This document shows positions 15,671-25,772 of a DNA stretch of 64,000 bases, in pieces (within the stretch, counting starts at the first letter, position 1; every line of letters starts with the position of its first letter). The notes under the pieces are model-generated. The model had not been told where the DNA came from. It worked only from the letters and a program-made list of their open reading frames with translations, and searched no databases. Source of the DNA: Streptomyces katrae (GTDB lineage Bacteria > Actinomycetota > Actinomycetes > Streptomycetales > Streptomycetaceae); NCBI RefSeq assembly GCF_002028425.1, contig NZ_CP020042.1:6671560-6735559 (forward strand), in the 5' to 3' direction. The translations under genes and the position numbers were made by a program.

Positions 15671-16885
15671 ATGACCAAGCGCACCCGTCGGACCCTCGCC
15701 CTGCTGTCGGCCGGCCTGCTGTCCGCCGCGGCCGCCGGCTGCTCCACCGGCGGCCACCCCGCACCCGCGCGCCTCGGCTCCAGCGCCGCCGGCGCCCCCG
15801 CCGCGGCGGCCGGATCCGCCTCCCCCGCCGCCCCCGCCGGCGCCCGCGGCTTCACCCTGGTCGCGAGCGGCGACGTCCTCCCGCACACCTCGGTCATCCA
15901 GCGGGCGAACGCCGACGCGGGCGGGGACGGGTACGACTTCCGGCCCATGTTCTCCGCGGTCAAACCGGTGGTCTCGGCCGCCGGCCTGGCCCTGTGCCAC
16001 ATGGAGACCATCTACGGGGACGAGGACGGCCCCTTCAGCGGCTACCCCGCCTTCGTCTCCCCGCCCGCCGTCGCCGACGCCCTCAAGGACGCCGGGTACG
16101 ACGGCTGCTCCACCGCCTCCAACCACACCCTGGACGACGGCGCCGAAGGCGTGAAACGCACCCTCGACCGCTTCGACAAGGTCGGACTCGGCCACGCCGG
16201 CTCCGCCCGCACCGCGGCGGAGGCGGCCCGCACCACCCTCTACACGGCCGGCACCGCCAAGGTCGCCCACCTCGCCTACACCTACGACACCAACGGCTAC
16301 CCCATGCCCGAAGGCCAGCCGTGGGCGGTCAACCTGATGCTCCAGGACAAGATCCTCGCGGACGCGCGGGCGGCCCGGAAGGCGGGCGCGGACGTGGTCC
16401 TCGTCAGCCTCCACTGGGGCACCGAATGGCAGACCGAACCCGACGAGACCCAGCTCTCGCTCGGCAAGGCCCTCACCGCCTCGCAGACCGGCGGCCGCCC
16501 CGACATCGACATGATCCTGGGCACCCACGCCCACATCCCGCAGGCCTACGAGAAGGTCAACGGGACCTGGATCGTCTACGGCATGGGCGACCAGGTCGCG
16601 GGCGAGATGTTCAACTACACCGGCGCCCGCGACATGCGGGGCAACTACGGCTCCATCGCCCGCTTCACCTTCGCCCCGCCCGCCGCCCCCGGACAGCGCT
16701 GGCAGGTCACCAAGGCCGAGTTCGTCCCGCAGATGATGGACCTGTCCACCGGCCGCGTCGTCAACCTCCCCGCCGCCCTCGCCCAGGACCCCGGCAACTC
16801 CGCGTACGAGAGCGCCCAGGACGAGATCACCGAGGCCGTCCTCAGCCGCGGCGCCGCCAAGGACGGCCTCCGCCGCGCCGGATAG
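15671..16885 (+). CDS. CapA-family lipoprotein (metallophosphatase fold)
   Basis: The 404-residue protein has a basic N-terminus (MTKRTRR) and a lipobox ending AAAGC at residue 18, so it is a predicted lipoprotein. The body is a PGA_cap/CapA domain with calcineurin-like metal motifs: VASGDVLPH, CHMETIYG, ASNHTLDDG (the NH pair), SLHWGTEW and GTHAHIPQ (GxHxH). CapA relatives take part in poly-gamma-glutamate export or wall-associated phosphoester chemistry; no capBC genes are here, so poly-glutamate synthesis is not implied. AAGGAG is the ribosome-binding site. Confidence 0.88.
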   Translation: MTKRTRRTLALLSAGLLSAAAAGCSTGGHPAPARLGSSAAGAPAAAAGSASPAAPAGARGFTLVASGDVLPHTSVIQRANADAGGDGYDFRPMFSAVKPVVSAAGLALCHMETIYGDEDGPFSGYPAFVSPPAVADALKDAGYDGCSTASNHTLDDGAEGVKRTLDRFDKVGLGHAGSARTAAEAARTTLYTAGTAKVAHLAYTYDTNGYPMPEGQPWAVNLMLQDKILADARAARKAGADVVLVSLHWGTEWQTEPDETQLSLGKALTASQTGGRPDIDMILGTHAHIPQAYEKVNGTWIVYGMGDQVAGEMFNYTGARDMRGNYGSIARFTFAPPAAPGQRWQVTKAEFVPQMMDLSTGRVVNLPAALAQDPGNSAYESAQDEITEAVLSRGAAKDGLRRAG

Positions 16886-17011: not shown

Positions 17012-17017
17012 TACAGT
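17012..17017 (+). promoter_or_regulatory. -10 box of a leaderless lysX transcript
   Basis: TACAGT lies seven bases before the ATG at 17025, so transcription would start at the start codon. No Shine-Dalgarno sequence is visible. Confidence 0.55.
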
Positions 17018-17024
17018 GCATGGC

Positions 17025-20000
17025 ATGAGTGCCACGCCGGAGCAGACCCGCGGTACCCGCAACAGGTTCCTCAACCGCGTCCCGGACGCCTTCGGGGCGT
17101 TCTTCGGAACGCTCGGCCTGCTGTGCGCGCTGCTGGCGCTCTCCCCGGTGCTGCGGGGGCTGCTGCGGCCCGTGGTGCGCTTCCTCGACGACTTCGTGGT
17201 GCCGGTCAGCGCGAACCTCGCGTACGCCGTCTTCCTCTTCCTGCTCGCCGCCGCGCTCGGCATCCGCAAGAAGATCGCCTGGTGGATCGTCGTCACCTAT
17301 CTGGCCCTGCTGATCCTCGTCGACGTACTGATCATCGCGGACGGGGACCTCTGGGTCGGCGGCCTGTCCCTGGCCCTCGCGGTGGCCGCCCTCGTCGTGC
17401 TGACCGCCGCCCGCAAGGAGTTCTACGCCGCCTCCCGCCCCGGCGCCGTCTGGCGCGCCCTTCTCGTCCTGGGGCTCGGGCTGCTCGCCGCCGTCTTCCT
17501 CGGCTGGGCCCTCGTCGCCCTGTTCCCCGGCACCCTGCCCAGGGGGCAGTGGCTGGACTGGGCCGCCAAGCAGGTCTTCGGCGGCCTCTTCTCCGCCCGC
17601 CAGTTCGACGGCCGCCCGCCCAGGGTGCTCTACTTCCTGCTCGGCCTCTTCGGCGCCGTCGCCCTGCTGAACGCCGCCTCCACCCTCTTCCGCTCCCAGC
17701 GGCTGACCGCCGCCCTGCACGGGGACGAGGAGCTCCGCATCCGCGCCCTGCTCGGCGCCTACGGCCGCGCCGACTCCCTCGGCTACTTCGCCACCCGGCG
17801 CGACAAGGCCGTGGTCTTCGCCCCCAACGGCAAGGCGGGCGTCACCTACCGGGTCGAGGCCGGCGTCTGCCTGGCCAGCGGCGACCCGGTGGGCGACCCG
17901 GCCGCCTGGACCCCCGCCATCGACGCCTGGCTGGCCGTCGCCCGCCGCTACGGCTGGCAGCCCGCCGTCATGGGCGCCTCCGAGAACGGCGCGACCGCGT
18001 ACGCCCGCTCCGGGCTCAGCGCCCTCCAGCTCGGCGACGAGGCCATCCTGCACGTCGCCCACTTCGACCTCGACGGCCGCGACATGCGCGTCACCCGGCA
18101 GGCCGTCAACCGCGTCAAACGGGCCGGCGCCACCACCCTGATCCGCCGCCACTCGGCCCTGACCGAGGAGGAGATGCGCACGATCGTCGACCGGGCCGAC
18201 CGCTGGCGCGACACCGAGACCGAACGCGGCTTCTCCATGGCCCTCGACCGGCTCGGCGACCCCGCCGACGGGGACTGCCTGCTCGTGGAGGCCTTCGACG
18301 CCCAGGGCGAGCTGATCGCCCTGCTCTCCTTCGTCCCCTGGGGCAAGGACGGCATCTCCCTCGACCTGATGCGCCGCGACCGCACCGCCCCCAACGGGGT
18401 CATGGAGTTCATGGTCGCCCAGCTGTGCGCGGCCGCCCCGGGCCTCGGCGTGCGCCGGATCTCCCTCAACTTCGCCGTGTTCCGCTCCGCCTTCGAGGAG
18501 GGCGGCCGGATCGGCGCGGGCCCCGTGCTCAAGCTGTGGCGCAGGCTGCTGCTGTTCTTCTCCCGCTGGTGGCAGCTGGAAGCCCTCTACCGGTCCAACG
18601 TCAAGTACGGGCCCGAGTGGTACCCCCGGTTCCTCTGCTACCAGGACGCCGGCTCGCTCGCCCGGGTCAGCCTCGCCTCCGGGATCGCCGAGGGCTTCGT
18701 CTCCGTGCCCAGCCTGCGCAAACTGTGGGGCAAGGGCCACCAGCCCAGGGGACTCACCGCCCCCGTCAACACCGCCGGCCTGCCCCCCCTCGAGTCCCTG
18801 GGCCTGGACCTCGTGGGGGAGGAGGGGGAACGGGCGCCCGCCGAGCGGCTGCCCGAGCAGGTCCGCGTCCGCCACGCCAAACTGGAACGCATCCGCGCCT
18901 CCGGAACCGATCCCTACCCGGTCGGGATCCGCCAGCGCACCCACACCGCCGCCCAGCTCAAGGCCGCCCACCCCGGCCGGCTCCCCGCCGGCGCCCGCAC
19001 CGGAGAGCCGGTCGTCCTCGCCGGCCGGGTGATGGTCGTCCGCGACCTCGGCGGCGTGGTCTTCGCCGTCCTGCGCGACTGGACCGGCGACATCCAGCTG
19101 ATGTTCACCCGCGACGAGTCCGGACCCGAAGCGCTGGACTCCTTCACCTCCCAGGTCGACTTCGGCGACCACGTGGTCGCCGGCGGAACCGCCGCCGCCG
19201 GCCGCAGCGGCGACCTGTCCGTCCTGGTCGACTCCTGGCAGCTCACCGGAAAGTGCCTGCGCCCCCTGCCCGACAAGCGCAAGGGCCTGGCCGACCCCGA
19301 GGCCCGGGTACGGCGCCGCTACCTCGACCTCGTCGCCAGCCCCGACGCCCGGGAGGTCGTACGGGCCCGCTCCAGCGCCGTGCAGGCCCTGCGCCAGGGC
19401 CTCCTGGACCGCGGCTACCTGGAGGTCGAGACCCCGATGCTCCAGCAGATCCACGGCGGCGCCAACGCCCGTCCCTTCCGCACCCACATCAACGCCTACG
19501 ACCTCGACCTGTACCTGCGCATCGCACCCGAGCTCTACCTCAAGCGGCTGTGCGTCGGAGGCCTGGAGAAGGTCTTCGAGATGGGCCGCACCTTCCGCAA
19601 CGAGGGCGTCTCCTACAAGCACAACCCCGAGTTCACGATGCTGGAGGCCTACCAGGCCTTCGCCGACTACGACGTGATGCTCGACCTCACCCGCGAGCTC
19701 ATCCAGGGCGCCGCCACCGCCGCCTTCGGCTCGCCCATCGCCCACAAGGCGGGCCCCGACGGCAAGCTCGTCGTCCACGACATCTCCGGGCCGTGGCCCG
19801 TCAAGACGATGTACGGGGCGATCAGCGAGGCCCTGGGCGAGGAGGTCGACGCCGACACCGAGGAGCACGTCCTGCGCGTGCACTGCGACCGGGCGGGCGT
19901 CCCCCACGGGCCCGAGGACACCCGCGGCGACGTGGTCCTGGAGATGTACGAACGGCTGGTGGAGGAGCGCACGCAACTCCCCACCTTCTACAAGGACTTC

Positions 20001-20333
20001 CCCACCGACGTCTCCCCGCTCACCCGCCAGCACCGAGTGGACCCCCGGCTCGCCGAACGCTGGGACCTCGTGGCCTTCGGCACCGAACTGGGCACCGCCT
20101 ACTCCGAGCTCACCGACCCCGTGGAGCAGCGCCGCAGGCTCACCGCGCAATCCCTGCTCGCGGCGGGCGGGGACCCGGAGGCGATGGAACTCGACAACGA
20201 CTTCCTCGACGCCCTGGAGTACGCCATGCCGCCCACCGGCGGACTGGGCATCGGCGTCGACCGGCTGGTCATGTTCCTCACCGGTCTGACGATCCGCGAG
20301 ACGCTTCCGTTCCCGCTGGTGCGCCAGAGCTGA
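17025..20333 (+). CDS. lysX: Bifunctional lysylphosphatidylglycerol synthetase / lysyl-tRNA synthetase
   Basis: The 1102-residue fusion starts with a membrane domain of about six helices (~25-220). A DUF2156/LPG-synthase domain follows (~225-560; LISLNFAVFRSAFEEGGRIG-like RISLNFAVFRS), and a class II lysyl-tRNA synthetase runs from ~600 to the end, with an OB-fold, HGGANARPFRTH, motif 2 FRNEGVSYKHNPEFTMLEAY and motif 3 GLGIGVDRLVMF. It charges lysine onto tRNA and transfers it to phosphatidylglycerol, giving a positively charged lipid linked in mycobacteria to resistance to cationic peptides. The ATG at 17025 is preferred over the in-frame GTG at 17016. It appears monocistronic, with polysaccharide deacetylase next. 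Confidence 0.95.
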   Translation: MSATPEQTRGTRNRFLNRVPDAFGAFFGTLGLLCALLALSPVLRGLLRPVVRFLDDFVVPVSANLAYAVFLFLLAAALGIRKKIAWWIVVTYLALLILVDVLIIADGDLWVGGLSLALAVAALVVLTAARKEFYAASRPGAVWRALLVLGLGLLAAVFLGWALVALFPGTLPRGQWLDWAAKQVFGGLFSARQFDGRPPRVLYFLLGLFGAVALLNAASTLFRSQRLTAALHGDEELRIRALLGAYGRADSLGYFATRRDKAVVFAPNGKAGVTYRVEAGVCLASGDPVGDPAAWTPAIDAWLAVARRYGWQPAVMGASENGATAYARSGLSALQLGDEAILHVAHFDLDGRDMRVTRQAVNRVKRAGATTLIRRHSALTEEEMRTIVDRADRWRDTETERGFSMALDRLGDPADGDCLLVEAFDAQGELIALLSFVPWGKDGISLDLMRRDRTAPNGVMEFMVAQLCAAAPGLGVRRISLNFAVFRSAFEEGGRIGAGPVLKLWRRLLLFFSRWWQLEALYRSNVKYGPEWYPRFLCYQDAGSLARVSLASGIAEGFVSVPSLRKLWGKGHQPRGLTAPVNTAGLPPLESLGLDLVGEEGERAPAERLPEQVRVRHAKLERIRASGTDPYPVGIRQRTHTAAQLKAAHPGRLPAGARTGEPVVLAGRVMVVRDLGGVVFAVLRDWTGDIQLMFTRDESGPEALDSFTSQVDFGDHVVAGGTAAAGRSGDLSVLVDSWQLTGKCLRPLPDKRKGLADPEARVRRRYLDLVASPDAREVVRARSSAVQALRQGLLDRGYLEVETPMLQQIHGGANARPFRTHINAYDLDLYLRIAPELYLKRLCVGGLEKVFEMGRTFRNEGVSYKHNPEFTMLEAYQAFADYDVMLDLTRELIQGAATAAFGSPIAHKAGPDGKLVVHDISGPWPVKTMYGAISEALGEEVDADTEEHVLRVHCDRAGVPHGPEDTRGDVVLEMYERLVEERTQLPTFYKDFPTDVSPLTRQHRVDPRLAERWDLVAFGTELGTAYSELTDPVEQRRRLTAQSLLAAGGDPEAMELDNDFLDALEYAMPPTGGLGIGVDRLVMFLTGLTIRETLPFPLVRQS

Positions 20334-20444: not shown

Positions 20445-21344
20445 ATGACAAATGACGAGCCGACAGTAGGGCGACGGGTGCTCCTGCGCACCGCCGTCTT
20501 CCTCGGAATCGCGGCCGCCGCCTCCTCCGGACTGCTCAGGGTGGGAGAGGACGGATCCCCGGCCGGTCCGCCCGGGACGTCCCCGGGCGCCACCCCCGAG
20601 CCCGCCCGCGGCCCCGGGGCCGGCGGAGCCCCCGGCGGCCACCCGGAAGGGCTCCCCGACGCCTCCCACCGGCTGCAGCCCATGACCGCCGAGGCCCCCG
20701 CCAAGCCGCCCGCCGTGAAGCCCGCCGTCCGCACCCGGCCCATCCTGGAACTGCCCCAGGGCCCGGCCGCGGGCGGCAAGGCCATGCTGCTCACCTTCGA
20801 CGACGGCCCCGACCCCCGCTACACCCCGGCCATCCTCGACACCCTCCGCCGGTACGGGGTCCGCGCGATGTTCTTCGTCTGCGGGGAGATGGCCACCGAC
20901 AACCGCGACCTGCTGCGCCGGATGGCCGCCGAGGGGCACGTCATCGGCAACCACACCTGGACGCACCCGCAGATCCCCCAGCTCAGCCGGTCCGCACTGG
21001 AATCGGAGATCGGGCGCACCAGCGAGGTGGTCGAGCAGGCGGTCGGGCAGCCCCCGCTGTGGTTCCGGGCCCCGTACGGGGCGTGGAACCGGGCCGCCTT
21101 CGAGATTGGGGCGGACCTGGGCATGGAACCCCTCGCCTGGACCGTGGACAGCCTCGACTGGACCGAACCCGGCACCACCACCATCGTTTCCCGGGTCCTC
21201 GACGGGGCCGCGCCGGGCGTGATCGTGCTGGGCCACGACGCCGGCGGCGACCGCTCGCAGAGCGTCCGGGCGCTGGAGACCTACCTTCCCCAGCTGCTGG
21301 GGCGCGGCTACCGCATGACCCTTCCGGTGCTGCCGCCCCGTTGA
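20445..21344 (+). CDS. Polysaccharide deacetylase (NodB domain), membrane-anchored or secreted
   Basis: The 299-residue protein starts with a twin-Arg-containing N-terminus (GRRVLLRTAVFLGIAAA) that is a signal or anchor, then a Pro/Gly-rich linker, then a carbohydrate-esterase-4 domain. All NodB motifs are visible: TFDDGPDPRYTP, GNHTWTHP (HxxxH metal ligands), FRAPYGAWN, VDSLDW and LGHDAGGD. It deacetylates N-acetylated glycans such as peptidoglycan or chitin oligomers outside the cell. Upstream, GATACGTAGTAATAATGAC is unusually AT-rich and is the likely promoter, with a very short leader. Confidence 0.9.
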   Translation: MTNDEPTVGRRVLLRTAVFLGIAAAASSGLLRVGEDGSPAGPPGTSPGATPEPARGPGAGGAPGGHPEGLPDASHRLQPMTAEAPAKPPAVKPAVRTRPILELPQGPAAGGKAMLLTFDDGPDPRYTPAILDTLRRYGVRAMFFVCGEMATDNRDLLRRMAAEGHVIGNHTWTHPQIPQLSRSALESEIGRTSEVVEQAVGQPPLWFRAPYGAWNRAAFEIGADLGMEPLAWTVDSLDWTEPGTTTIVSRVLDGAAPGVIVLGHDAGGDRSQSVRALETYLPQLLGRGYRMTLPVLPPR

Positions 21345-21408: not shown

Positions 21409-22074
21409 TCAGCGGGCCTCGACCATCCGCGCGAAGACCACCACGTTGCCGTCGTAGCCCTTGGCCTTCGAGTAGCCGCCTCCGCAGGTGATCACCCGCA
21501 GCTCCGGGTGCCCGGTGTCCCCGTACACCCGCGCGCCGGGGAAGGAGTCCTTCGCGAACACCTCGACCCCGTACACCTCGAAGACCGCCGTGCGGCCGTC
21601 GTAGCGCTGCACCTCGATGTGGTTGCCCGGCTTGAGCGAGCCCAGCCCGTAGAAGACGGCCGGGCCCTGCGCGTTGTCCACGTGGCCCACGATCACCGCC
21701 GACCCCTGCTGGCCCGGCGAGATGCCGTTGAGGTACCAGCCCGCCAGGTTGCGGTCCTGCGGCGGCGGGGCGTCGATCCAGCCCTGCGCGTCCAGGCCGA
21801 CCGTCATCACCGGCGCGTCCACGTTGATCGTCGGAATCCGGATGCGCTGCACCGACGAGTGGTCCAGCACCTCCATGTCCGCGGGCGGTGTGGGTGCGTT
21901 GGCCGGCTGCTGGTCGGCCCGGGTGGCGACAGCCGCCGCCGCGGTGGGCTGCGGCGGCCCGTCCGCCACGTTCGCCCCGTTCCGCATCATGGCGAGGCCG
22001 CTGAGCAGTGCCAGTGCGAGCACGCCCCATGGGGAACGTCTCCTCGGCCGCTGCCCGGTCTCGTCCTCGAGCAT
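21409..22074 (-). CDS. Class F sortase
   Basis: The 221-residue protein has a short cytoplasmic basic head (RPRRRSPWG), one membrane helix (~17-32), a linker and a sortase beta-barrel. The catalytic residues are all present: His131 in VIVGHVDN, Cys197 in VITCGGGY and Arg216 near the C-terminus (VVVFAR). Sortases cut a C-terminal signal of a secreted substrate and attach it to the wall or another nucleophile. The ATG at 22074 has GGGAG six bases upstream. It is divergent from one putative surface substrate and next but one to a second, which argues that this is a dedicated sortase. Confidence 0.92.
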   Translation of the reverse strand: MLEDETGQRPRRRSPWGVLALALLSGLAMMRNGANVADGPPQPTAAAAVATRADQQPANAPTPPADMEVLDHSSVQRIRIPTINVDAPVMTVGLDAQGWIDAPPPQDRNLAGWYLNGISPGQQGSAVIVGHVDNAQGPAVFYGLGSLKPGNHIEVQRYDGRTAVFEVYGVEVFAKDSFPGARVYGDTGHPELRVITCGGGYSKAKGYDGNVVVFARMVEAR

Positions 22075-22427: not shown

Positions 22428-22931
22428 ATGCGTGCTTTCCGCGCTCTCACCGTGACCGCGGCCGCCTGCGCCGCGCTCGGGATCAGTGCCCCGTTCGCCG
22501 CCGCGAACAACCCGAACGGCAGCGGCAACGGGCCGAGCAACGTCACGGTCAACCCGTACTCCGTGCACCAGGGCGCCTCGATGCAGGTCAGCGCGGCCGG
22601 CTGCGGCCACGGTGGCACGGTCTGGTCGCACGGCAACTTTCCGCAGACCAATCTGTCGGCCGGCTCCATCGGCTTCGCCACCGTCCGGATCTTCAACCAC
22701 GCCTCGCCCGGCCACCACACCCTGTCGGTCAAGTGCCACGACAACAGCCTGGTCGCCACGCACCGCTTCACGATCCTGGCCGGCAACGGGGCCCAGGGCG
22801 GTCTCGGCGGCTCCTTCGGCCCGTCCACCGCCGAGACGGCCATCGGGGCGGGCCTGGTCGGCGCCGCGGCGCTCGGTGCGGGCGTGCACGTGGTGCGCCG
22901 CCGCCGTCCGGCCGCCGCCGCCCGCTCCTGA
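22428..22931 (+). CDS. Surface protein 1, probable sortase F substrate
   Basis: The 167-residue protein has a cleavable signal peptide (cut near Ala25), one Ig-like beta domain with two cysteines (Cys59, Cys103) probably disulphide-bonded, then a C-terminal sorting-type arrangement. That consists of GGLGGS (124-129), a hydrophobic segment (~136-156) and a RRRR tail (157-160). There is no LPXTG or LAXTG. The architecture and the adjacent sortase suggest GGLGGS-containing sequence is the processing signal, which is inference. GGAGG lies seven bases before the ATG. It shares its fold and tail with the protein encoded at 22989-23714. Confidence 0.85.
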   Translation: MRAFRALTVTAAACAALGISAPFAAANNPNGSGNGPSNVTVNPYSVHQGASMQVSAAGCGHGGTVWSHGNFPQTNLSAGSIGFATVRIFNHASPGHHTLSVKCHDNSLVATHRFTILAGNGAQGGLGGSFGPSTAETAIGAGLVGAAALGAGVHVVRRRRPAAAARS

Positions 22932-22949
22932 CGCCCCTCCCCGGAGGTC

Positions 22950-22984
22950 GCCCCGGGCCGCCCGCGTGCGCGGGGGCCCGGGGC
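22950..22984. terminator. Hairpin terminator between the two surface-protein genes
   Basis: GCCCCGGGCC (22950-22959) pairs with GGCCCGGGGC (22975-22984), placed between convergent genes. Confidence 0.6.
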
Positions 22985-22988
22985 GGGG

Positions 22989-23714
22989 TCAGTGGCCGCG
23001 GGCCGCGCGGCGCCGGCGCAGGGCGTACGCCGAACCGCCCGCGGCGGCGGCGAAGAGGACGGCTCCCGCGGCGAGTTCGAGCGGGTCGGCCCCGGCCACG
23101 CTGCCGCCGAGCCCGCCGCGGACGCCCAGCGCGGCGGTGGTCGCGCTGGCCCGGGGGACCGGGTTCGTGCGGGCCGGCGGTGTGGTCCGGGCGGGCGCGG
23201 CGGTGCGCGCCGGGGGTGTGATGCGCGCCGGAGGTGTGGTGCGGGCCGGCGGTGTGGTGAGCGGCGGCGGCCGCAGGCCCGTGCCGGAGGTGGCGGCCGG
23301 GGAGGGGGTGCGCCGGGTGGCGGCGGTGGAGCTGGTGGTGGGCTGGCTCGTCCCGCCGGTGATGGTGAGATCAGTGGACCCGTTCTCCCCGTCGCAGGTG
23401 AAGGTGACCGAGTACAGGGCGCCGGGCCGGGCGTCGCGGTCGACCGTGACCTTGACGGCCTTGCCCCGCTCGATGGTCACGGTGTCGAAGACCCCGGACG
23501 AGGCGGTGGCGTAGGCGGCGCCGCAGTTGCTGACGGAGAGGGTGACCGTACCGCCGGGCGCCACCGTCGACGGGGTGACGGCGAAGGCGAAGGAGGTGGC
23601 GGGCGCCGCCTCGGCCGCGAGGACGACGGGCGCGCCAAAGGCGCCGAGCGCGAGGGCGAGGCCCGTTGCGCCGGCGCTCAGCAGAGCGGTGGCGGAGCTG
23701 CATATCGCACCCAT
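22989..23714 (-). CDS. Surface protein 2, probable sortase F substrate
   Basis: The 241-residue protein has a signal peptide (cleavage near residue 33), an Ig-like domain with two cysteines (Cys64, Cys107), then a Thr/Pro stalk with PPART(T/N/I) repeats (~150-186). It ends with GGLGGS (200-205), a hydrophobic segment (~211-231) and RRRR (233-236). It is paralogous to surface protein 1, with the same domain and same tail, but adds a glycosylation-friendly stalk that would lift the domain away from the wall. No LPXTG motif is present. Start ATG at 23714. Confidence 0.85.
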   Translation of the reverse strand: MGAICSSATALLSAGATGLALALGAFGAPVVLAAEAAPATSFAFAVTPSTVAPGGTVTLSVSNCGAAYATASSGVFDTVTIERGKAVKVTVDRDARPGALYSVTFTCDGENGSTDLTITGGTSQPTTSSTAATRRTPSPAATSGTGLRPPPLTTPPARTTPPARITPPARTAAPARTTPPARTNPVPRASATTAALGVRGGLGGSVAGADPLELAAGAVLFAAAAGGSAYALRRRRAARGH

Positions 23715-23914: not shown

Positions 23915-24685
23915 TCAGCTCTTCAGGCCGTGGTGGGGGAACTGCGCGAGGAAGGGTTCGGCGGTGGCCGCGATCCCGCGCCCGAAGGGCGCGTCGAAGT
24001 CCCAGATCAGGAACAGCAGGAAGGCGATCAGCGCGCTGAACAGGCCGGCGAGCAGCAGTTCGCGGAAGGACCGGCGGATCTGCAGCATGAAGATCATCCC
24101 GACCGTCACCAGGGCTCCGGCGATCAGTCCGAACCACACCACCCCGGGCATGGTGGCCCCGGCGCTCTGGCCGCGGGCGTTGCGGGCGTCGTCCACCAGC
24201 GCGACCTGGTCGACGAGGGGCTGGTAGGCCTGCCCCTCGTGGTCGGTCTGCGGCGCGTAGTCGGTCACGTCGCGGCGGATCTTCTCCAGCAGCTGCCCGC
24301 TCTCGTCCGTCAGCTCGTTCTTCTCCGACATGTGCTTCCACTCCGTGTCGACCACGTAGGTCACGTACGCGTCGACGTCGGAGCGGATCTTCGCCCGCAC
24401 CTCGGCCGGGTAGACCTGGGAGCGGACGCTGATCTCGTGCAGGGCCTGGGACTCCTGGCGCACGTACTCCTGGGCGGCCCCGCGGCCCTCCCAGACGCCC
24501 GCGATCGCCAGGCCCAGCACGATCGCGTAGATCACCCCGATCATCATCGTCATGTACTCGATGACGTCCGGGGTCTCGTCCGGATCGTCGTCCTCGGTGA
24601 TCCTGCGGTGGTTGAAGAAGGCGATGGACAGCACCACGGCACAGGCCGCGGCCATCGCGAGGGTCAGGACGAGCCATTCCGACAA
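23915..24685 (-). CDS. DUF4239 membrane protein
   Basis: The 256-residue protein has two N-terminal membrane helices, then a charged segment EDDDPDETPDVIEYMTMMIG leading into the second helix. A ~130-residue extracytoplasmic helical region follows, then two C-terminal helices ending in IWDFDAPFGRGI. This is the bestrophin-like DUF4239 layout; the family's activity is unknown, possibly a channel. A TTG at 24685 is taken as the start because GGGAG lies six bases upstream and the first helix follows at once; upstream in-frame sequence looks non-coding. Confidence 0.82.
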   Translation of the reverse strand: MSEWLVLTLAMAAACAVVLSIAFFNHRRITEDDDPDETPDVIEYMTMMIGVIYAIVLGLAIAGVWEGRGAAQEYVRQESQALHEISVRSQVYPAEVRAKIRSDVDAYVTYVVDTEWKHMSEKNELTDESGQLLEKIRRDVTDYAPQTDHEGQAYQPLVDQVALVDDARNARGQSAGATMPGVVWFGLIAGALVTVGMIFMLQIRRSFRELLLAGLFSALIAFLLFLIWDFDAPFGRGIAATAEPFLAQFPHHGLKS

Positions 24686-24765: not shown

Positions 24766-25437
24766 CTAGCGCGGGCGCAGCGCGACGATCGCGAGCACGG
24801 CGGGGGCGGCGGTCATGAGGGTGAACGTGACCGGCGAGATGTGGTGTTCGACCGGTTTGCGCGCGGCCGTGTGATACGCGGGCCGCGGCACCTTGGGCTT
24901 GGGCGCGGGCGGCTTGGGTGCCGGGGTGGGCGGCGCGGGCGCGGGCTGCGGAGGAGGCGGCGCGGGCGCCCGGTACACCTGGGGCGCGGGCGGCTTGGGC
25001 GCGGGGGGCTCCGGCGCGGGGGGAGCGGGCCTCGGCGGCGCGGGGGCCGGCGGCGGAGGAGGCGGCGGAGGCGGCGGGGTGGGCTTGGGCGGCGGGGTCG
25101 GTTTGGGTGGCGGAGGGGTGGGCGTCGGCGTGGGTGTGGGCGTGGGTTTCGGCGGGCACGGCGGGGGAGGGGGCGGCGGGCAGTGGTGCTCGTGCCCGTG
25201 GCCGCGGCCCTTGTCGTGGCCACGGCCCTTGCCGGGCCGGCCGTCGTGATGTCCGCCACCCCCGGCGGCCGCGCCGGCGCCGCTGCCGGCGTACGCGTAG
25301 ACCTCGACGGAGGCTCCGCCCTCCCCGCTGCCGACCGTCGCGTAGGCACAGCTATCGGCCACCGCCGGAGTGGTCGACAGGGTCGCCCACAGCAGGACCG
25401 GGACCGCCAGCAGACGTCTGGCTAAAGCTCTGTTCAC
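24766..25437 (-). CDS. Secreted polyproline protein with C-terminal membrane segment
   Basis: A 223-residue protein with an N-terminal signal peptide (RRLLAVPVLLWATLSTTPAVA), a small Cys/Gly segment and a His-rich patch (GHGHEHHC). About 100 residues of nearly pure proline mixed with KPTPTP, PAPK and PPAP repeats follow, then a hydrophobic C-terminal stretch (FTLMTAAPAVLAIVALRPR). It looks like a wall-spanning rod anchored at its C-terminus. GTG at 25437 is a plausible start, though the ribosome-binding site is poor. It lies 80 bases upstream of the DUF4239 gene, same strand. Codon use is heavily biased but consistent with coding. Confidence 0.7.
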   Translation of the reverse strand: MNRALARRLLAVPVLLWATLSTTPAVADSCAYATVGSGEGGASVEVYAYAGSGAGAAAGGGGHHDGRPGKGRGHDKGRGHGHEHHCPPPPPPPCPPKPTPTPTPTPTPPPPKPTPPPKPTPPPPPPPPPPAPAPPRPAPPAPEPPAPKPPAPQVYRAPAPPPPQPAPAPPTPAPKPPAPKPKVPRPAYHTAARKPVEHHISPVTFTLMTAAPAVLAIVALRPR

Positions 25438-25772
25438 CCGGGGAGCATGGGCTCGCGCGCGCCCGCGCACGCGGGACCCGGGAGGGGTTCGCCCGAACGG
25501 GCGGATCCTGGACCGGTGAGGTTTGAGACAGGTTCTGATCGCTTGTGATTGAACGTTGGTCAATTCCCAAAAGGTATTTGTCGGTTTCCGTGACGCCCGG
25601 GCCGGCCCCCGGAGCCTTTGGTGTGTGACCAAGAACGGATCGGCAATTTCCGCTTTTGCTCGCCCTGTTGGGCAATGATCAGTACATTCGGCTCGGACAA
25701 GAGTCCGGCCCCCGCCCGATCCCCGGACGGACCAGGTACGACCACGACACTGACGACGGCTTGGAGACCCCG
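25438..25772. other. 335-bp divergent control region upstream of the methyltransferase gene
   Basis: No credible gene. It is noticeably AT-richer than its surroundings between about 25520 and 25690. It holds the dyad ATTGA-N7-TCAAT (25548-25564) and several TTG-starting hexamers, so the promoters of both divergent genes are probably here, but none can be picked out securely. Confidence 0.45.

Follow-up and report, generated by a model that had tools for sequence, protein, structure and literature searches.

A class F sortase gene in this Streptomyces genome lies beside two genes whose products, here called A and B, end in glycine-rich sorting-type tails. We consider it probable (roughly 0.75) that the three form a dedicated class F sortase-substrate module in which the threonine of the sorting signal has been switched to glycine and by which A and B would be displayed at the cell surface. 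Protein A is the constant partner of the sortase, and B and its stalk are optional. The tail is of a kind already modelled by NCBI (NF058571), and its motif, G-[AVS]-x-[G/A]-G-x-G-G, is on alignment a variant of a wider G-V-x-T-G-x-G-G kind.

The locus and the catalytic residues of the sortase

The window, by which we mean the whole stretch of 64,000 nucleotides analysed, corresponds to C1:6671560-6735559 of its own genome. The sortase gene (21409..22074, − strand; 221 aa) is divergent from the gene for A (22428..22931, + strand; 167 aa), and the gene for B (22989..23714, − strand; 241 aa) is convergent with A; the positions of A and B agree with those given in an earlier note on this DNA. The same note had assigned the dedicated neighbour sortase to class F, and the enzyme indeed passes the NCBIfam class F model NF033748 with 211 bits against a cut-off of 166. 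A sequence search of solved structures with this single sortase as query gave no match at E≤0.001; a sortase profile searched against solved structures found distant sortases (best E 4.5e-5). Among the alignments to solved sortases that were listed, the best match up the GHvD and TC stretches and stop short of the place of the catalytic Arg.

Across 100 aligned class F sortases we found four invariant columns (100/100): His131 (codon 21682-21684, − strand), Asp133, Cys197 (codon 21484-21486, − strand) and Asn210 (codon 21445-21447, − strand). The previously proposed triad of His131, Cys197 and Arg216 was therefore borne out for its first two members but not for the third, as column 216 holds His in 58/100 class F sortases and Arg in only 31/100. 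Arg216 was ruled out as the third catalytic residue on these grounds, with Asn210 conserved in its stead. Asn210 occupies what we take to be the place of the catalytic Arg of other sortases, judged by its Cys+13 spacing, as in the best-known sortase, and by the strand that follows. It is probably the third catalytic partner beside Cys197 and His131, an assignment that remains putative. PMC6998099, in its available part, reports that class F enzymes of actinobacteria have Asn instead of Arg, in agreement with Asn210 at Cys+13.

Proteins A and B and their tails

A and B are probably secreted, small, single-Ig-domain proteins, to judge from sequence and models. That the two Ig-like proteins carry a related domain, as had been noted before, is upheld by a weak similarity (25% identity over 65 aa, two-sequence E 9e-4) and by AlphaFold2, which predicted a beta-sandwich both for residues 37-120 of A (22536..22787, + strand) and for residues 43-118 of B (23361..23588, − strand). 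Block mean pLDDT was 89-94 from residue 41 to 120 of A and 94-98 in the Ig-like domain of B; the tail of A fell below 50. Foldseek returned weak matches that included Ig-, TIG- and pilin-type sandwiches, with one match at E≤0.001 for A and none for B. Sequence comparison of A with solved structures gave nothing convincing (best E 0.015, in the signal-peptide part), and low-scoring NCBIfam and Pfam matches of the two proteins, such as one to mycothiol synthase at 19.5 bits (cut-off 163), were taken as noise.

We assessed signal peptides by inspection and with a simple rule. A has one by inspection, which makes its secretion, claimed earlier for both proteins, probable; export of the window's B is less sure. 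The N-terminus of B (MGAICSSATALLSAG...) is hydrophobic and resembles a weak signal peptide, contains no Arg or Lys, and fails the signal-peptide part of our scan. B orthologues mostly start with MRAI or MGAIR.

Both tails read G[AV]xGGLGGS, followed by 27 residues and then RRRR, at identical spacing. Taking P1 as the residue before the conserved Gly of a sortase signal, the motif of A is GAQGGLGGS (residues 121-129; 22788..22814, + strand), with Gly124 the inferred P1 and Gly125 the inferred P1′, and that of B is GVRGGLGGS (residues 197-205; 23100..23126, − strand), with Gly200 the inferred P1. The 27 residues, which include the hydrophobic segment, and the RRRR together span 22815..22907 (+ strand) in A and 23007..23099 (− strand) in B. 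A pattern scan found neither LPXTG nor LAXTG in A or B, which confirms in both proteins the earlier description of GGLGGS, a hydrophobic stretch and RRRR with no canonical motif. GGLGGS itself is present as described, but the conserved motif is longer leftward and looser, taking the G-[AVS]-x-[G/A]-G-x-G-G form given above. Gly124, Gly125, Gly127 and Gly128 are invariant in 20 aligned A proteins (20/26 sequences, the six left out being mainly longer); the corresponding alignment of B proteins comprises 21/23 sequences.

Neither A nor B matched PF00746, or any GlyGly-CTERM model in NCBIfam, at E≤1, and these searches together with the pattern scan rule out membership of the GlyGly-CTERM, PF00746 and LAXTG groups. 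Against NF058571 (GVDTG sorting domain, GVDTG_CTERM; cut-off 29), A scored 17.7 and B 18.1, both below the cut-off. Their tails have the three parts of this domain (motif, hydrophobic segment and Arg cluster), and model positions 5-44 of 44 are aligned, but Gly stands where the family name implies Thr. Among 59 tails (A, B and 57 pieces beside class F sortases), 51 matched NF058571 at E≤0.1. We scored ten further tails singly: the four with P1-Gly all failed (17.3-23.2), and the six with Thr were divided between three that passed (32.4, 43.2 and 51.3) and three that did not (17.3, 20.5 and 22.4). As half of these Thr tails also fell under the cut-off, missing it is not special to Gly.

Between its domain and its tail B carries a Thr/Pro stalk (residues ~122-193; 23136..23351, − strand), the length of which varies among orthologues, from ~70 residues in the window to ~10 in the orthologue at L133. 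We collected 66 loci orthologous to the window's by means of the sortase alone. All are from Streptomyces, the nearest being S. katrae at 98% identity, and three repeat loci of our first set. The A tail was present in 66/66 and the B tail in 40/66. In the other 26 the A tail stood alone, and tblastn with 22 B orthologues gave no match at E≤1e-6; two loci with a B tail that were run alongside as a control (L389 and L408) did give matches. Among the B-less loci, two lie on contigs that end before the place of B (L372 and L415) and two on short contigs (L383 and L396), so that B may be cut off there. At L176, in genome G026, a B-like frame of 63% identity stops short of a sorting tail, which may reflect decay of the gene or a faulty assembly. 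The picture of one short protein and one raised on a Thr/Pro stalk thus holds in the window, but the stalk varies and B was not found in 26/66 loci, which rules out a two-protein system as the general rule. Together, the patchy occurrence of B and its variable stalk point to A with the sortase as the core.

Tails beside class F sortases and the residue at P1

A class F sortase over the cut-off was found in at least 60 of 61 Streptomyces genomes. We examined 100 class F regions of up to 8.5 kb each (838 kb in total), hand-picked from the better assembled genomes among the matches listed together with the sortases of the window's own genome; the set is non-random and many of its members are mutually orthologous. 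One of the 100, L120, carries a sub-cut-off sortase. All six frames were searched for products with a signal peptide, a hydrophobic stretch near the C-terminus and basic residues at the end, with the motif ignored. This geometry returned 120 frames, 112 of which, in 92/100 regions, carry the core [VAMPSH]x[TAGS]GxG, and 41 tails in 28 of the 100 regions were of the GGLGGS type. In twenty control regions (400 kb) of genomes from that set, 10 frames fitted the geometry, none of them with the core motif and none of the GGLGGS type. The enrichment of the tail near class F sortases on which the earlier note had staked its proposal is thus present (41 GGLGGS-type tails in 838 kb versus 0 in 400 kb). 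By the tail rule, four of 101 loci were tail-less: L120 (which is not in the tree described below), L138, L184 (at a contig end) and L211, the last of which carries VDAGFGV, outside the rule.

A profile of 17 tails was then run over 14 whole genomes. It gave 61 matches at E≤1e-5, of which 49 lay within 3 kb of an over-cut-off class F sortase, where chance would place ~0.4%; as the profile was built from tails beside sortases, and 150 first-look candidates were scored per genome, this count is neither independent nor complete. The remaining 12 strong matches were far from any class F sortase, and 38 of the 82 class F sortases in these genomes had no tail-profile match at E≤0.01 within 3 kb.

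The window's own genome holds two further loci of this kind. At C1:2503508-2503969 (L013) a third Ig-like protein ends in GGLGGS, 140 kb from the nearest over-cut-off class F sortase; the window sortase may serve this orphan in trans. Matches ~80 kb from a class F sortase in genomes G038 and G054 are maybe counterparts of the same protein. At C1:2643012-2644088 (L008 and L001) there is a second class F sortase with its own GVDTG-domain protein, whose tail is GHVRTGVGGG, and the single over-cut-off NF058571 match in the genome (C1:2643012-2643140) adjoins it. Regional enrichment and the pairing across 66 loci support the view that the window's class F sortase has its own candidate substrates with a non-canonical motif. 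The stronger idea of an exceptional, self-contained pair fared less well: the tail is a variant of the signal found beside most of the Streptomyces class F sortases examined, and the GGLGGS protein 140 kb away, the optional nature of B and the existing NCBI model all leave that picture unsupported.

The same kind of tail was seen beyond the genus. At least 106 of 246 genomes of the class have a class F sortase over the cut-off, and we examined 54 class F regions from other families, chosen among the matches listed, many of the genomes having had 14 first-look candidates scored. A core-motif tail was present in 38/54, often as G-[GA]-[AVP]-x-T-G-x-G-G, and absent from 16/54; some of these regions overlap (L318/L319, L330/L331 and L334/L335), so the 38 counts some proteins twice, and the motif rule may admit a few chance matches. 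Four of the 54 also fit a loose LP/LA-x-T/A/S-G rule, and P1-Gly occurred in two regions of two genomes (L296 and L310). Many actinobacterial class F sortases thus appear, from their neighbours, to use a G-V-x-T-G-x-G-G signal. In family f17, three regions (L319, L331 and L335) each hold two class F sortases ~4 kb apart and three tailed proteins, perhaps multi-substrate arrays.

To place P1 in this context we used a tree of 100 class F sortases, comprising that of the window and those of 99 regions. All sortases with P1-Gly neighbours except that of L159 belonged to a single clade of 29 (SH-aLRT 84, quick search), which also includes L184, the locus at a contig end; the label required 2 changes on the tree versus 20-29 in 200 label shuffles. 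The tails at the 28 tail-bearing loci of this clade, the window included, comprised 45 Gly, 7 Ala and 0 Thr, and no Thr tail lay within ~2.7 kb of these 28 sortases. Tails elsewhere on the tree comprised 40 Thr, 24 Ala, 4 Ser and 1 Gly, the Ser labels being at least partly artefacts. The tail rule demands the following glycines and leaves P1 open among T, A, G, S and E. The 66 orthologous loci gave a similar result, with 103/106 tails having Gly, three Ala and none Thr (A, 66/66 Gly; B, 37 Gly and 3 Ala of 40); in the 63 non-repeated loci Gly was found in 97/100 tails. The distance from P1′ to the Arg cluster was 32 residues in 30/46 P1-Gly tails and 31 residues in 23/28 TGVGG tails, so the alignment register is likely right. 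Six residues of the sortase, Val92, Trp99, Val129, Glu166, Gly169 and Gly180, were found in 29/29 members of the Gly clade and in 0/28 sortases with TGVGG neighbours; common descent could alone fix such residues, so as specificity positions they are candidates only. A more specific proposal, for which we see the odds as even, is that this Streptomyces class F clade switched its signal from x-Thr-Gly to x-Gly-Gly, cut between the last two residues, together with its substrates. P1, the acyl-enzyme and the wall bond would then be formed by Gly, the change would be held by the clade-fixed residues (these six and others), and Asn210 would replace Arg. In the literature searched, which included little of the subscription literature, we found no text that describes the Thr-to-Gly variant or connects it with a single sortase clade.

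The clade also shares its surroundings. In the window a polysaccharide (NodB-type) deacetylase gene (20445..21344, + strand; PF01522, 134 bits) and a gene for a bestrophin-like membrane protein (23915..24679, − strand; PF14023, 205 bits) flank the module, and each was found in 26/28 of the other clade regions. A PGA_cap gene was present in 13/28 and a LysX-type lysyltransferase/synthetase gene in 12/28; a region of the same extent in the window would take in part of the LysX gene and stop short of the PGA_cap gene. The 72 other class F regions contained none of the four genes. These shared neighbours place the module in a stable block of envelope-type genes, and the deacetylase and envelope genes suggest a wall or capsule role for the Ig domains of A and B. 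In the window the capsule-type PGA_cap gene is at 15671-16885 (+ strand) and the LysX-type gene, for a fused lysylphosphatidylglycerol synthase/lysyl-tRNA synthetase, at 17016-20333 (+ strand). The window also has, at 24766-25440 (− strand), a gene for a Pro-rich protein that has no over-cut-off family match and is found in 2/28 orthologous regions.

A proposed mechanism, its alternatives and known systems

In the mechanism that we favour, A and B would be exported and then retained in the membrane through their C-terminal hydrophobic segment and RRRR. Cys197 of the sortase, with His131 and probably Asn210, would then cleave within G-[AV]-x-G-G-L-G-G-S, the likeliest bond being that between Gly124 and Gly125 in A and that between Gly200 and Gly201 in B, the place at which ordinary signals are cut between Thr and Gly. 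Transfer of the Ig-domain part onto a peptidoglycan precursor by the sortase would follow and would leave the Ig domains on display on the wall, that of A close in and that of B further out on its stalk. The sequences themselves show the gene content, the geometry of the tails, their conservation and their linkage to one sortase clade, whereas we infer recognition, cut site and wall attachment. Export and membrane retention are read from sequence, and recognition is deduced from the linkage and from the way tails and sortases vary together. The cut site is taken from how the tails align with Thr tails, and transfer to the peptidoglycan precursor from analogy with known sortases.

The same sortase and substrates could be paired with a different cut site, the enzyme reading GG-x-GG-S and cutting at another Gly or before Ser; the register would then be shifted and there would be no switch at P1. 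Several glycines flank the inferred site, and those after the inferred P1′ are equally invariant. Still, the alignment of A-type tails with TGVGG tails of the SVGPDT type runs gap-free through the motif and on into the hydrophobic segment, the most frequent distances to the Arg cluster are one residue apart, and B orthologues alternate between Gly and Ala at the inferred P1 column, much as P1 varies in other groups. We consider a shifted register unlikely, although it is the most credible of the alternatives. Less credible again is that the tail is a membrane anchor and nothing else, the loss of Thr being an escape from processing and the sortase serving other proteins. A and B do lack the Thr of the GVDTG kind and score under the NF058571 cut-off. 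Against an anchor of this sort, the glycine has been kept rather than allowed to decay (103/106 tails, no Thr), the sortase and A occur together in 66/66 loci, and no Thr tail was found within ~2.7 kb of the 28 tail-bearing clade sortases.

Glycine-rich tails arising by chance deserve little weight. Genomes of this kind are rich in Gly, Ala and Arg codons, but the control DNA refutes this explanation, as no tail was found in its 400 kb compared with 41 of the GGLGGS type in the 838 kb around class F sortases. Processing of the tail by another enzyme, either the class E housekeeping sortase or a rhomboid protease of the GlyGly-CTERM type, is improbable, slightly more so than the bare anchor. 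A Gly pair followed by a hydrophobic segment and an Arg cluster recalls GlyGly-CTERM tails (PMC3237569, as far as its available text goes); one tail from another family, beside a class F sortase (L305), weakly matches TIGR03867 (GlyGly-CTERM) at 16.5 bits (cut-off 19.7), and the 12 of 61 tails far from class F genes would also be accommodated. A and B, however, have no LAXTG and no GlyGly-CTERM model match at E≤1, and tails of their kind are concentrated near class F genes and differ from one class F clade to another.

Several results above count against the dedicated class F module with a glycine signal: the 38/82 class F sortases with no tail-profile match nearby, the 12 strong matches far from any such enzyme, the scores of A and B under the NF058571 cut-off, the 16/54 regions of other families with no core-motif tail and the uncharged N-terminus of the window's B. 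So do two reports, each available in part. The class F enzyme of Cutibacterium acnes, of the same class as the window enzyme, is reported to recognise LPXTG (PMC13257024), and in Actinoplanes missouriensis the removal of its four class F genes together left the phenotype unchanged (PMC13251363), which argues against a clear class F role. The Actinoplanes study, in the portion available, sought substrates with LPXTG-like motifs only, and such searches miss G-V-x-T/A/G-G-x-G-G tails. The roles of class F sortases are called unknown in the accessible text of PMC13251363 and PMC6998099. A GVxTG or GGLGGS signal is not described in the accessible portions of PMC13251363, PMC6998099, PMC13293333, PMC13257024, PMC5148588, PMC10924467 and PMC12445094, and the two papers in which 'GVDTG' occurs look unrelated.

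The genus-wide pairing of class F sortases with adjacent tails offers a candidate substrate for many class F enzymes. For sortase specificity the P1-Gly clade amounts to an experiment done by nature, and it is a starting point in the search for ligation enzymes whose signal is orthogonal and made up of glycine. Compared with known systems, the tails of A and B resemble those of GlyGly-CTERM/rhombosortase in having two Gly ahead of a hydrophobic segment and an Arg cluster; the enzyme is different, and A and B match no such model. The class E sortases SrtE1 and SrtE2 of Streptomyces coelicolor, with their LAXTG chaplins, also act in this genus in the wall display of secreted proteins (PMC5148588, available part), but they belong to another class, have a catalytic Arg and use a different motif, LAXTG being absent from A and B. 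Within class F as defined by NF033748, the window enzyme shares His131, Cys197 and Asn210 with the other 99 aligned sortases, and differs from the class at large in belonging to a clade with its own fixed residues and P1-Gly neighbours.
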